Shown here in pieces: positions 53,536 through 60,368 of a DNA stretch of 64,000 bases (its first letter is position 1; every line of letters starts with the position of its first letter). Location: positions 1 through 64,000 of the forward strand of contig CAMNXA010000008.1 in NCBI GenBank assembly GCA_946566685.1, read 5' to 3'. This stretch comes from an uncultured Lachnospiraceae bacterium (GTDB lineage Bacteria > Bacillota > Clostridia > Lachnospirales > Lachnospiraceae). A program made the position numbers and the translations under genes. Below the pieces are notes generated by a model. The model did no database searches and had not been told where the DNA came from. It worked only from the letters and a program-made list of their open reading frames with translations.

Positions 53536-56500
53536 TTAAACTTCTTTTTCTCTTTTTAAATTTTTCTGTGCGGTGGACAGCATCAGCTTGATGCGGTTCA
53601 GCTGGTTCACTTCGCTGGCACCGGGATCGTAATCGATGGCTACGATGTTAGAACTGGGGAAACGGGACCGCAGTTCCTTGATCACACCTTTGCCCACCAC
53701 ATGATTGGGCAGACAGCCGAAAGGCTGGGTACAGACGATATTGTTGACACCGCTGTGGATGAGTTCCACCATCTCGCCGGTCAAAAACCACCCTTCTCCG
53801 GTCTGGTTGCCGATATTGACGATGGGGCGGGCATAATCCACCAGTGTATAGATACTCACAGGCGGCGTAAAATGTCTGCTCTTCTTAAATTCCCTGGCGG
53901 CCTGTCCGCGCATCCTCTCCAGGGCCCAGATCCCCATTCTGGAAAGCAGGGCGGCTTTTCTGGAAGTGCCCAGATACTCGGCCTTATAAATCTGGTTATA
54001 GAAGCAGTAGAGCATAAAGTCCAGAAGATCCGGCACCACGGCCTCCGCGCCTTCGGATTCCAATAGTTCCACCAGATGATTGTTGGCGGCAGGCGCAAAC
54101 TTGACAAGGATTTCGCCCACGATGCCCACCCGCGGTTTGCGCAGGTTTTCATCGATGGGTATGGCGTCAAACTCCCGGATGATCTGTCTGCACATTTTTT
54201 GGAAAGTAAAGTAATTCAGATGCTTCCTTGACACGAACTGGCGGCATCTGTCCGCCCACTTGGCATGCAGGGCATCTACAGAACCGGGCGTAGTTTCATA
54301 GGGGCGCATACGATAGACGCAGCGCATGAAAATATCCCCGAACAGGGCACCGTATGCAGCGCGCATCAATAGTTCCCCATTTAAATGGAATCCTGGGTTG
54401 CTCTCGATGCCGGCAAGGTTTAGGGAAATGACAGGAATCTGCGGCATACCTGCCTTCTCCAGGGCGCGTCTGATAAAGCCCACATAGTTGGTAGCACGGC
54501 ACCCGCCGCCGGTCTGGCTCATGATGATGGCCACTTTGTCGAGGTCATATCTGCCGGAGAGCAGGGCATCCATAATCTGTCCCACCACGATCAGGGAAGG
54601 ATAACAGGCGTCATTATTTACATATTTCAATCCCACATCCACAGCGTGGCGGTTGTCATTGGCAAGCACCTCAAAATGATAGCCGCAGGCCTGGAAAGCT
54701 GCCTCGATGATCTCAAAATGAATGGGAGACATCTGGGGACAAAGAATGGTATATTCTTTGCGCATTTCCTCCGTGAAGGCCACTTTATGGATGGCGCTGG
54801 AACGGATGACCCGTTCTTTGTGTTTCTGTTCCCTGACCTTGATGGCAGAGAGCAGAGAACGGATGCGGATTCTGGCGGCGCCCAGATTGTTGACCTCGTC
54901 AATTTTCAGACAGGTATAAATCTTATCGGAACCGGAGAGGATATCGTTAACCTGGTCTGTGGTCACGGCATCCAGGCCGCAGCCGAAGGAGTTCAGCTGA
55001 ATCAGATCCAGGTCATCGCGGGTTTTCACGAAGCTGGCGGCGGCATAGAGCCTGGAGTGGTACATCCACTGGTCAGAGACGATCAGCGGACGCTCCGGCT
55101 GTGCCAGATGAGACACAGAGTCTTCCGTCAACACAGCGATGTCATAGGAAGTGATCAGTTCCGGGATGCCGTGGTTGATCTCCGGATCAATATGATAAGG
55201 GCGGCCTGCCAGCACGATGCCGCGGACATGGTTGGTCTCCATATAACGCAGGACTTCTTCGCCTTTGTTACGCATATCCTGACGGGCAGCCGCCAGTTCT
55301 TCCCAGGCGGCTTCTGCGGCGTTCATCACTTCCGTGACGGGCAGATCCTGAAATTCTTTGGTCAGGGCAGAGGTTACCGTGTGCAGACTCTCAAAGGACA
55401 TAAAGGGGTTGCGGAACATAACTTCCCCGCGTCCAATCTCTTCCACATTATTCTTGATGTTTTCGGAATAAGAGGTGACAATGGGGCAGTTATAGTGGTT
55501 GTTGGCCTCATGGAACTCATCGCGCTCATAAAAGAGAGCGGGATAGAAGATGAAATCCACCTTCTGATTGATGAGCCAGGAGATGTGCCCATGTGCCAGT
55601 TTGGCCGGATAACATTCCGACTCGCTGGGGATGGATTCGATTCCCAACTCATAAATCTTACGGTTGGAGGTGGGGGAGAGTATCACCCGATACCCTAGCT
55701 TCGTAAAGAACGTAAACCAGAAAGGATAGTTTTCATACATGTTTAAGACTCTGGGAATCCCCACTGTGCCGCGCTTCGCTTCGTCAGCAGGCAGCGGCTC
55801 GTAGGAGAAGAGCCTTTTCAGCTTATAATCATAGAGGTTGGGAACACCGTTTTCCTTTTTGGATTTGCCCAGCCCGCGTTCACAGCGGTTTCCGGAAATA
55901 TATTGGCGCCCCCCCGTAAACTTGTTGATTGTAAGACGACAGCTGTTGGTGCAGCCCTTACACTTGGCCATACTGGTCTCAAATTGCAGATTGGTGATCT
56001 GCTCCAAATTCAGCATGGAAGTGGCATAACCGTCCTGGTAGTGTTCCCTGGCGATCAGTGCCGCGCCAAAGGCTCCCATGATGCCGGCAATATCCGGGCG
56101 GATGGCCTCACAATTTGCAATCTTCTCGAAACTTCTGAGCACGGCATCATTGTAAAAAGTACCGCCCTGTACCACAATGTGGCGGCCAAGTTCCGAGGCA
56201 TCGGACACTTTGATAACCTTAAACAAAGCGTTTTTGATGACGGAATAGGCAAGCCCGGCAGAAATATCGGAGACGGAAGCCCCTTCTTTCTGGGCCTGCT
56301 TGACCTTGGAGTTCATAAATACCGTACAGCGGGTGCCAAGGTCTATGGGATGCTCGGCAAACAGCGCTGTCCGGGCAAACTCCTCCACGCCATAATTCAG
56401 GGACTTGGCAAAGGTTTCAATAAAGGAACCACAGCCCGAAGAACAGGCTTCGTTCAGCTGTACGCTGTCCACGGTCTGGTTCTTGATCTTAATGCATTTC

Positions 56501-57780
56501 ATGTCCTGACCGCCGATGTCCAGGATGCAGTCCACATCCGGGTTGAAGAAAGCAGCGGCATTGTAGTGCGCCACGGTCTCCACCTCGCCGTCATCCAGTA
56601 AGAAGGCGGCCTTCATCAGCGCTTCACCGTAGCCGGTGGAACAGGAACGGACAATTTTGACACCCGCCGGGAGCAGACGGTAGATTTCCTTGAGAGAGCG
56701 GATGGCGGTCTTTAAGGGGCTGCCATCGTTGCTGCTGTAGAAAGAATAGAGCAGAGAGCCGTCCTCGCCCACAAGCGCCACCTTGGTAGTGGTGGAGCCG
56801 GCGTCAATCCCCAGGAAGCAGTTACCCTGATAGGTGGACAGGTCTCCGGTGGTCACATGGTGGGTATTATGCCTTTCACAGAAAGCATCATATTCATTCT
56901 GGGAGGCAAACAGCGGCTCCATGCGCTCCACCTCAAAGTCCATTTTAATATCGCCGGAGAGTTTCCCCGTCATCTCTTCCATGGTATAAAAAGTCTCTTC
57001 CTTTGCGTTCAGGGCGGAGCCGATGGCGGCGAAAAGATGGGAATTGTCCATATCGATGATGTGCTCCTCGTCCAGCTTTAAGGTGCGGATAAAGGACTGC
57101 TTTAATTCGGATAAGAAATGCAGCGGGCCGCCCAGGAAAGCTACGTGCCCCCGGATCGGTTTGCCGCAGGCCAGGCCGCTGATAGTCTGGTTGACCACAG
57201 CCTGAAAAATGGAAGCCGACAGATCCTCCTTGGTAGCCCCCTCATTGATCAGGGGCTGGATGTCGGATTTGGCAAACACACCGCATCTGGCGGCGATGGT
57301 GTAGAGGGAATGATAGTTCCTGGCATAGGTGTTAAGGCCAGCGGCGTCCGTCTGTAAGAGGGAGGCCATCTGGTCGATAAAGGAACCTGTGCCGCCGGCA
57401 CAGATGCCGTTCATACGCTGTTCCACATTGCCGCCCTCAAAATAGATGATCTTGGCGTCCTCGCCGCCTAATTCAATCGCCACATCGGTGACGGGGGCAA
57501 AGGTCTGCAAGGAAGTGGACACCGCGATGACTTCCTGAACGAAGGGAACCTGTAAATGATTGGCCAGGGTAAGGCCGCCGGAACCGGTGATCATGGGATG
57601 CACCGTCAGGTTGCCCAGTTTATCATAAGCTTTGGAAAGCAGGTCGGAGAGTGTCTCCTTTATATTGGCAAAATGCCGTTGATAGTCGGAAAAGAGTATC
57701 TGATGCCTGTCATCCAGAATGGCGATCTTGACCGTGGTGGAACCGATGTCGATGCCAAGCGTATATTGCATTTCACTCAT
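53536..57780 (-). CDS. Fused 2-hydroxyacyl-CoA dehydratase activase/DUF2229-type protein
   Basis: 1,414 residues. Two BcrAD/BadFG-type ASKHA ATPase domains come first: domain 1 with [17 protein letters not shown] (from residue 8) and [15 protein letters not shown], and domain 2 with [19 protein letters not shown] (from about 323) and [14 protein letters not shown]. Each carries the Cys used to bind a bridging 4Fe-4S cluster. A Cys-rich linker ([24 protein letters not shown]) is followed by a DUF2229 domain ([18 protein letters not shown]) and a region resembling dehydratase subunits ([13 protein letters not shown]). In dehydratases such as HgdC/HgdAB the activase drives a low-potential electron by ATP hydrolysis. 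No dehydratase subunits are adjacent; the protein may be self-contained. ATG 57780 has GGAGTGAG upstream. Confidence 0.88.
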
Positions 57781-57958: not shown

Positions 57959-57987
57959 TTTACATTTAAAATAAGGGATGATAAAAT
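57959..57987 (+). promoter_or_regulatory. Promoter of the rhomboid-like gene
   Basis: TTTACA (57959-57964) and TAAAAT (57982-57987) are 17 bases apart. The leader is about 100 bases, in which a GC-rich stretch (58018-58060) may fold. Confidence 0.55.
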
Positions 57988-58092
57988 GTATTCAGTTTCA
58001 GCGGGGAAAATACATGCTGGCCGGAGGATTGGGAAAATGCGCGGTCATCCTGCCGGCAATGTAAAGTATCAGACAGTGGGAGTGTGCTTGTT

Positions 58093-58962
58093 ATGAGTCC
58101 TTTTGAACGGAAATTTGGAAAATATGCCATAAAGAATCTTTCCTTCATTCTTGTCTTGTGTTATGGTGTGGGCTATCTTTTACAGATGATGGACAGGAGT
58201 AATACATTGTTATCGTTTCTGACACTGAATCCCTATGCAATCCTGCACGGGCAGATCTGGCGGCTTGTCACATGGATTCTGGTTCCGCCGCCGGGCAGCG
58301 GGGGACTTTTTCTGACATTGATCATGCTGTATTTTTACTGCTCCATAGGCACATCCCTGGAACGAACCTGGGGGACTTATCGCTATAATGTTTATCTCTT
58401 TCAGGGGATGTTATTTACCATCCTGGGAAGCTTTTTGCTGATGGCGTTTTGTTATCTCTTCCAGGCGGATACGATTGCGAAGTACAGTCCAGAAGTGTTC
58501 TTTTATATGATTTCCATTGCTTTTAGCACTTATTATATCAATATGTCAATTTTCTTGGCGTTTGCGGCAACCTTCCCGGAGGCACAGGTGCTCCTGATGT
58601 TCATTATTCCGATTAAGGTAAAATGGCTGGGAGTCATTTATGCCATCATGCTGGGCGTTGAGTTTTTGGGGAGCAGTGTGTATTATAAGTTTGCCATTGC
58701 GGCATCGCTTTTCAATTTTGTGGTATTTTTCTTTACCTCCAGGAATATGATGCATTTGAATCCCAAGCAGATTCACAGGCGGCAGGAATTTAAGCGGGAT
58801 GTGAGAAGAAATACCGGGATCACCAAACATAAGTGTGCCATCTGCGGCCGGACGGAAGTGGACAGTCCGCAGATGCAGTTTCGGTTCTGTTCCAAGTGTG
58901 ACGGCAATTATGAATACTGTGAGGAACATCTGTATACCCATACCCATATTAAGAGAAGCTGA
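58093..58962 (+). CDS. Rhomboid-like membrane protein with C-terminal Cys/His zinc-ribbon-like region
   Basis: 289 residues from ATG 58093 (GGGAG 10 bases upstream; GTG 58084 is too near). About six membrane helices occupy 18-220. IWRLVTWILVPP and the GTSLERTWG stretch recall rhomboid-like proteins, but the GxSG nucleophile and catalytic His are absent, so it is probably a pseudoprotease of the derlin/TMEM115-like kind. The C-terminal 60 residues carry CAICG, FCSKC and HLYTHTHIK, a likely zinc-binding module facing the cytoplasm. It starts a unit with the sigma-like gene 29 bases downstream, suggesting linked roles. Function unknown. Confidence 0.7.
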   Translation: MSPFERKFGKYAIKNLSFILVLCYGVGYLLQMMDRSNTLLSFLTLNPYAILHGQIWRLVTWILVPPPGSGGLFLTLIMLYFYCSIGTSLERTWGTYRYNVYLFQGMLFTILGSFLLMAFCYLFQADTIAKYSPEVFFYMISIAFSTYYINMSIFLAFAATFPEAQVLLMFIIPIKVKWLGVIYAIMLGVEFLGSSVYYKFAIAASLFNFVVFFFTSRNMMHLNPKQIHRRQEFKRDVRRNTGITKHKCAICGRTEVDSPQMQFRFCSKCDGNYEYCEEHLYTHTHIKRS

Positions 58963-58991
58963 CAGAATAATAAAAAGAAAAGGAACCCTAT

Positions 58992-59726
58992 ATGGACAGA
59001 GAAGTTCAGTTTGCCAAAACATTAGAGGAAGTCAGACAGAAGGCCAAAACACAGAATAACTGTATTTCAGAGGCGGAGGTGGAGGAGGCGTTTGCGCCGT
59101 TAGCCCTCTCGGCAGAGCAGATGGAGATGGTCTACCAGTATCTGCGGCAGAAAAAGATCGGCATCGGCGAACCGGTGGATTACGAGGAATATCTGCGGGA
59201 TGAGGAGAAGGATTATCTGGCTTCCTATCTGGAATCACTCAACGCATATGCTGAAATCTCCGAGGGAGAGCGGGAGGCTGTGACACTCTCAGCCATGGCC
59301 GGGGATCTGGATGCAGTCAACAGGCTGACGGAGATATTCCTTCCGGAAGTGGCGGAGATTGCCAAACTCTATGCCGGACAGGGCGTATATCTGGAAGATC
59401 TGATCGGGGAGGGCAATGTGGCGCTTTCCCTGGGTGTGACCATGCTGGGGGCATTGGAGCATGCTTCAGAGGTTCAGGGGATGCTGGCCAGGCTGATCAT
59501 GGATGCCATGGAAGATTTTATTGCCGAAAATGCGGCGGAGGAGAAGAAAGACAAGAAGATTGCCGACAAAGTCAATAAGGTGGCGGACGCGGCGAATGCG
59601 CTGCAGGAGGAACTTCGCAGAAAGGTGACGGTGGAGGAATTGATGACGGAGACCGGTTTTAGCAGGAAGTCCATCGAGGATGCCATCCGTGTGAGCGGCG
59701 ATAAGATTGAGGCGATTGAAACTTGA
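58992..59726 (+). CDS. Truncated sigma-70-like protein lacking promoter-reading regions
   Basis: 244 residues; AAAGGAA precedes the ATG. Residues about 25-75 resemble sigma region 1.1 (AFAPLALSAEQMEMVYQYLRQ). About 75-110 resembles region 1.2 (YLRDEEKDYLASYLESLNAY). About 110-145 matches 2.1-2.2 (LDAVNRLTEIFLPEVAEIAK then GQGVYLEDLIGEGNVAL, compare the housekeeping-factor motif with DLIQEGN). The next stretch (about 146-180) lacks the aromatic/basic residues of 2.3-2.4. Region 3.0-3.1 is clear (LQEELRRKVTVEELMTETGF) and ends at DKIEAIET, where region 4 should begin. It may bind core polymerase without recognising a promoter. Function unproven. Confidence 0.7.
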   Translation: MDREVQFAKTLEEVRQKAKTQNNCISEAEVEEAFAPLALSAEQMEMVYQYLRQKKIGIGEPVDYEEYLRDEEKDYLASYLESLNAYAEISEGEREAVTLSAMAGDLDAVNRLTEIFLPEVAEIAKLYAGQGVYLEDLIGEGNVALSLGVTMLGALEHASEVQGMLARLIMDAMEDFIAENAAEEKKDKKIADKVNKVADAANALQEELRRKVTVEELMTETGFSRKSIEDAIRVSGDKIEAIET

Positions 59727-59755
59727 AGTTACTTTTTAGATAAGGCGGTGGATAC

Positions 59756-60178
59756 GTGGAAGGGCAGAACAGGGATTTTAAATATTTTATGCAGGATACG
59801 GGTTCCATTTATCTGGGCGCCAAGTTAAATTATACGGAAATCTTGCAGGATGAGATGGTGAATTTCAAATATAAGAGTATTGTGGAACACTATATTTTCA
59901 AGGACACCGATCCGGAGACCACGCTGGAGAGCCAGCTCTACTATATGACGGAGGATCAGTTTTCCTACCGGACTTATATGCAGTTGAAGGCGCGGGTGAA
60001 GATCAGCATACTGGAGGAGAAGAAAGGCTTTTTGGGTAAGACAAAGACCGGTTACCAGAGTAAGGTCATGAAGTTAAATGAGTTCGTATCGATGAATCTG
60101 GCGCAGAAGAAGGCGGCAGGCGTGGTGGTACAGGAGTTGATCTTATCCAAGCTGGCTCTGATGTCCTTCAGCGTGTAG
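59756..60178 (+). CDS. Conserved-looking small protein of unknown function
   Basis: 140 residues from GTG 59756, with AAGGCGGTGG upstream; the gene lies 29 bases after the sigma-like gene and is likely in its operon. It begins VEGQNRDFKYFMQDTGSIYL and contains YKSIVEHYIFKDTDPETT, then EEKKGFLGKTKTGYQSKVMKLNEF. No signal peptide or membrane segment is seen, and the composition is mixed alpha/beta. I cannot place it in a family. Co-location with the rhomboid-like and sigma-like genes is its only functional clue. Confidence 0.65.
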   Translation: MEGQNRDFKYFMQDTGSIYLGAKLNYTEILQDEMVNFKYKSIVEHYIFKDTDPETTLESQLYYMTEDQFSYRTYMQLKARVKISILEEKKGFLGKTKTGYQSKVMKLNEFVSMNLAQKKAAGVVVQELILSKLALMSFSV

Positions 60179-60262: not shown

Positions 60263-60289
60263 AACACCGTAAAATTCCCCTTTTACACT

Positions 60290-60331
60290 GGACAGGTGAA
60301 AACAAAACTTAAGTTTTTGCCTGTCCTTTTA
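60290..60331 (+). terminator. Strong intrinsic terminator before the M16 gene
   Basis: A 14-bp stem with two G-U pairs (60290-60303 with 60313-60326, GGACAGGTGAAAAC with GTTTTTGCCTGTCC) encloses AAAACTTAA and is followed by TTTTAGTTTTT. It lies 112 bases after the preceding stop codon and ends the rhomboid/sigma-like unit. Confidence 0.85.
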
Positions 60332-60338
60332 GTTTTTC

Positions 60339-60368
60339 TTTACTAAATTTTAGCAGGAGTGGTATACT
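60339..60368 (+). promoter_or_regulatory. Promoter of the M16C protease gene
   Basis: TTTACT (60339-60344) and TATACT (60363-60368) are 18 bases apart, directly after the terminator. The leader of about 85 bases contains ACTTCTG and its complement CAGAAGT, which could pair across about 40 bases. Confidence 0.6.

Follow-up and report, generated by a model that had tools for sequence, protein, structure and literature searches.

The window analysed here, a 64,000-nt stretch of DNA, raises the question of what a shortened sigma-70 relative, encoded between a membrane protein and a small third protein, might still do in the cell. A first-pass annotation had read the three genes as an operon, had described the middle protein as a sigma factor without its DNA-reading regions, and had proposed that the membrane protein holds it as a sequestered mimic. 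The trio is present as described, with three ORFs on the same strand at 58093-60178 in the ORF list of the window (here termed rho, sig and p3; Table 1), and its order is conserved in one lineage. The ORF call for rho begins at a GTG at 58084, upstream of the ATG that is used here.

Table 1. Features of the rho-sig-p3 locus (coordinates within the window).
Feature	Coordinates	Strand	Description
SigA-type promoter-like site	57959..57987	+	TTTACA-17-TAAAAT, TG before second hexamer; upstream of rho
rho	58093..58962	+	putative membrane pseudoprotease of rhomboid/Derlin fold; zinc-type tail at the C-terminus; ATG start
Zinc-type module of rho	58834..58947	+	eight Cys/His invariant in 35/35 aligned members
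sig	58992..59726	+	truncated SigA paralogue, 244 aa
Sigma region 1.1 of sig	59019..59201	+	residues 10-70; PF03979 above cut-off
Region 2.2 core-RNAP-binding motif of sig	59397..59417	+	DLIGEGN, residues 136-142
Degenerate 2.3-2.4 segment of sig	59445..59534	+	residues 152-181; aromatics and basic residues lost; charge reversed
Region 3.1-like segment of sig	59586..59705	+	residues 199-238, from SigA alignment; C-terminus 6 residues on
p3	59756..60178	+	140-aa protein; predicted fold may resemble part of molybdenum hydroxylase FAD domain
Terminator-type hairpin	60290..60326	+	14 pairs, 9-nt loop, then T-rich tract

The promoter-like site upstream of rho matched the consensus at 10 of 12 positions in a consensus scan, a weak signal since the region contains nine such sites against 5.6 expected. 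Folding of the segment that encloses the hairpin (60270-60345) gave -20.8 kcal/mol (z -4.7); the hairpin was missed by a separate scan with a loop limit of 8. A promoter-like site before rho and a hairpin after p3 are consistent with a single operon, and dN/dS was 0.06-0.09 for rho, sig and p3 alike in comparisons with L032 and L087, the two loci to which this estimate is limited, as dS was saturated or uncomputable for the remaining pairs. The trio is flanked by a divergent CoA-enzyme activase gene and, on the other side, by an M16C peptidase gene. The activase-type protein (53536-57780, 1414 aa) comprises BcrAD, DUF2229 and a weak HGD-D match, and a BcrAD/DUF2229 activase gene also adjoins rho in many related loci. 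A phage origin was rejected on a search of PHROGs, in which rho, sig and p3 had no match at E 0.01, as was a plasmid origin, with no match for sig in the plasmid search.

The first-pass annotation had assigned sigma regions 1.1, 1.2, 2.1-2.2 and 3 to sig. Comparison with Pfam models upheld this above cut-off for region 1.1 alone (Sigma70_r1_1, PF03979; 24.4 bits, cut-off 22.5), with r3 (17.7 bits, cut-off 25.3) and r2 (13.5 bits, cut-off 24) both under theirs. The best NCBIfam and PDB matches were to RpoD (4.6e-12, far under the model's own cut-off) and to SigA chains (E down to 3.5e-9, residues 100-239), respectively, and no model specific to sig was matched in Pfam or NCBIfam. In alignment with SigA, sig covers 1.1, 1.2, 2.1, 2.2, 2.3-2.4 and 3.1, and stops before 3.2 and 4; the window's genome encodes a full-length SigA separately (L002, 370 aa). 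Regions 2.3-2.4 and 4 had both been reported as missing, which is correct for region 4. The 2.3-2.4 stretch, in contrast, is not deleted: a segment of similar length aligns there, unlike SigA/RpoD in being degenerate and charge-reversed, with the conserved residues gone and in an uncertain register that affects charge and aromatic counts little.

Members of the sig family were found in at least 102 of the 299 genomes of the window's family, Lachnospiraceae, using a 52-sequence profile (E 1e-61), a number that is a floor because lower-scoring members were read in further genomes (e.g. L148-L151). A single-sequence search at 1e-12 reached 142/299 genomes, true SigA being included in that count. 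Matches at 1e-61 came as one copy per genome in the 102 genomes, and the sole second match (G258:C19) was a full SigA. The latter was one of six among the 103 matches that lay in frames >330 aa, the other five (G007, G097, G110, G125 and G226) proving truncated on reading; most remaining matches were classed by frame length (237-320 aa). An internal stop fell within the matched stretch in 6/103. Long frames in G174 and G226 were rejected as fusions that might give a clue to a partner, as the sig-like genes inside them are ordinary ones (184 and 302 aa). One sig-like protein (L218, in G110) has a Cys/His-rich C-terminal tail, metal-binding in appearance.

The survey of relatives took in 146 genomes from the order, of which 131 lie outside the family, plus 118 from the class, and the best matches listed from outside the family were SigA-sized, bar a few exceptions judged on frame length. 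At the order level these were G379, G392 and G431, whose best frames among those listed span 271-292 aa (contig ends in G379 and G392), and seven of the 131 genomes had best matches too weak for listing; at the class level they were G498 (262 aa, contig end) and two second matches of 312-314 aa among those listed. A quickly computed tree (74 rows) split 69 truncated proteins from five SigA at one branch (SH-aLRT 100). Group A formed one clade (SH-aLRT 94); next to it (82) fell L158, which has a long branch, and the rho-adjacent L189 and L190. The only full sigmas in the tree are SigA from five genomes, and thus an origin from another sigma is excluded by similarity alone. Judging from these sequences, sig is a duplicate of SigA, and it would have arisen once by duplication, at or close to the common ancestor of the window's bacterial family.

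Which residues selection kept was examined at single positions taken to represent the functions of 2.2, 2.3, 2.4 and 3.0, in 120 distinct sequences of group A, 44 of group B and five of SigA. Mean conservation of D, L, I, E, G and N of the 2.2 motif was 0.99 in group A and 0.90 in group B, with the D and N present in 120/120 and 44/44, respectively. Mean identity at six 2.3-associated aromatics was 0.00 in group A and 0.09 in group B; the corresponding values were 0.01 and 0.12 at four 2.4 residues, and 0.07 and 0.11 at the H/E of 3.0. Over SigA positions 177-205, net charge was +2.4 in the five SigA, -5.2 in group A and -3.5 in group B, and aromatics numbered 7.2, 0.8 and 1.8. Group A departs from SigA in other ways too, with the Q of the 2.2 motif replaced by G in all 120 sequences (Q in 39/44 of group B), two conserved 2.1 residues altered (R143 to P in 97/120, S147 to E in 69/120) and the net charge of regions 1.2-2.1 shifted from +0.6 to -5.8, so that its core interface may differ from that of SigA. 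The excerpted text of one review (PMC4598750) places the sigma2-core interface mainly where the 2.2 helix meets the beta-prime coiled coil, and describes 2.3-2.4 as contacting the -10 element. By what it keeps and what it has shed, sig is a sigma-derived protein with the core-binding signature retained and the promoter-reading surfaces lost.

The two neighbours were characterized by remote homology and structure prediction. For the rho family, matches to Pfam Rhomboid (0.007) and DER1 (6e-4) were weak and arose in 1/35 members each, and PDB GlpG (0.031) and hhalign against eight rhomboids (probability 59) were likewise weak; support for a rhomboid fold comes from the predicted structure of rho. 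The catalytic residues had been described as lacking, which applies to the TM6 His (absent in 32/32) and not to the TM4 Ser position (kept in 32/32), with the register set by eye. Unlike GlpG, Derlin-1 and YqgP, then, rho has neither the TM6 His nor the GxSG glycines (by eye), and it differs from them further by its C-terminal module. The zinc-type character earlier ascribed to this tail was borne out by its invariant ligands (C251 C254 C269 C272 C279 H282 H286 H288 in 292-aa numbering); its best Pfam matches, DUF7577 and PLATZ, are under cut-off for the window's protein. From rhomboid topology the tail would be cytosolic. Modelled structure suggests that p3 may be a pared-down portion of the FAD domain found in molybdenum hydroxylases. 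It differs from the FAD subunits of those enzymes (FAD_binding_5) in its small size and in having no Pfam match and no GGN-type motif visible by eye in the rows displayed or in the consensus of 45 members; FAD_binding_5 had no match in the window's genome at 1e-8. As the fold of p3 is alpha/beta, its candidacy as a sigma region 4 or an anti-sigma was rejected.

We give even chances to a reading in which sig, a sigma paralogue blind to promoters, takes the sigma site on core RNAP in competition with SigA. Selection has retained the 2.2 motif, through which a sigma factor clamps onto the beta-prime coiled coil of core RNAP; the face responsible for melting and reading the -10 element has been lost and its charge reversed, and region 4 is gone. 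Such a protein would dock on the sigma2 site, yielding a complex unable to open promoters, and may thereby compete with SigA or park surplus core enzyme. It is unlikely, in our estimation, that sig is instead a decoy like PhyR, binding an anti-sigma directed at SigA or another sigma factor and so releasing the real sigma. Both are sigma folds unable to read promoters, comparable mimicry is known (PMC8103513, in excerpt), and the excerpt of PMC4383634 has the anti-sigma CsfB binding 2.1 or 2.2-2.3 of sporulation sigmas, which keeps this rival alive. PhyR, however, is a response regulator whose ECF-like domain is, according to the excerpt of PMC8103513, degenerate for promoter and core contacts, which sets it apart from sig, where the core motif is kept and no receiver domain was matched in Pfam at E 10; moreover, a scan of rho, p3, the M16C peptidase and the activase matched no anti-sigma family. 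Exaptation of the sigma fold as a scaffold for a partner other than RNAP would accommodate the Q-to-G replacement and the 1.2-2.1 charge shift of group A and the diverse neighbours of group B, yet it is precisely the core-contact motif that is near-invariant in both groups despite large divergence, and we regard such a change of partner as improbable. A split sigma of the SigO-RsoA kind, with region 4 supplied by another protein, is highly improbable: split sigmas exist and RsoA provides sigma2 for transcription (PMC8103513, in excerpt), and like them sig is a partial sigma factor on one protein, but the 2.3-2.4 residues required for promoter opening are degenerate in groups A and B, and the fold of p3 is unlike region 4. 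Sigma70_r4 does match 32 times in the window's genome at E 0.01, with 23 matches above cut-off and a few in frames of 71-123 aa.

The membrane-sequestered mimic of the first-pass annotation, in which the tail of rho holds sig, or sequesters polymerase via sig, is compatible with core binding and draws on gene order. Of 109 related loci (112 minus two window copies and the SigA locus; some end at contig edges), 100 had rho, sig and p3, seven had rho and sig, and two had sig and p3. Gaps were short, with medians of 39 nt between rho and sig (<=100 nt in 82/103 loci) and 16 nt between sig and p3 (<=100 nt in 97/103 loci); p3 was found in 38/299 genomes and by coordinates adjoins sig in 37. The putatively cytosolic tail also favours this mimic, as does the zinc-stabilised anti-sigma domain known from ChrR (PMC4598750, in excerpt). 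Conserved synteny nevertheless stops at one lineage, as neither rho nor p3 was found beside sig in any of 44 group B loci (3.5-6 kb fetched per locus), and rho occurs in 286/299 genomes, far beyond the recorded range of sig. The tail is equally alike with or without a neighbouring sig (mean identity 0.74 between rho with and without adjacent sig, and 0.74 among rho with sig), and partial correlations of divergence were negative for sig-rho (-0.22) and sig-rho tail (-0.12) and positive for rho-p3. Exceptions run both ways: in L085 (group A) sig and p3 stand together with another gene in the place of rho, whereas in G128 (locus L217) an SRP-type GTPase gene separates rho from p3 and no copy of sig was found in that genome, which is 69% complete. 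These comparisons give no support to the idea of rho and sig as a purpose-built pair, and their pairing was dropped as the basis of the system; the sequestered mimic is in our view a distinctly unlikely reading. Two further group A loci (L104 and L110) carry an extra inserted gene. Neighbours of group B sig are diverse, e.g. S41-peptidase-like genes or GAPDH-PGK-TPI (named by eye), and this variation led us to reject a partner from that neighbourhood.

For sig as an occupant of core RNAP, these data would place its recruitment to the operon in one lineage, where it became the middle gene between a pre-existing rho and the stripped FAD-fold p3, and rho and p3 may there set its level or activity. 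A wider version, in which this SigA duplicate occupies polymerase family-wide and, where wired to rho and p3, lets membrane or metal state tune the share of polymerase left to SigA, we consider doubtful. Among the titles listed from the open-licence literature searched, none describes the sig family; what appears new is a protein derived from sigma-70, itself a known kind, that has given up promoter reading. Were sig to bind core RNAP, one of the major bacterial families of the gut would carry a built-in competitor of its housekeeping sigma, and evolution would have separated cleanly the core-gripping and DNA-reading parts of a sigma factor. In that case sig would be a tool provided by nature for dissecting how sigma works, and would open a new way to approach growth control in these bacteria. 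Put simply, in one family of gut bacteria many members carry a truncated sigma relative that may act as a brake on, or a placeholder in, their polymerase.

Among 16 loci with rho and no adjacent sig (L174-L188 and L191), CorA adjoins rho in 10 and pyruvate kinase in 13, a neighbourhood hinting at a role for rho in Mg transport or membrane quality control.
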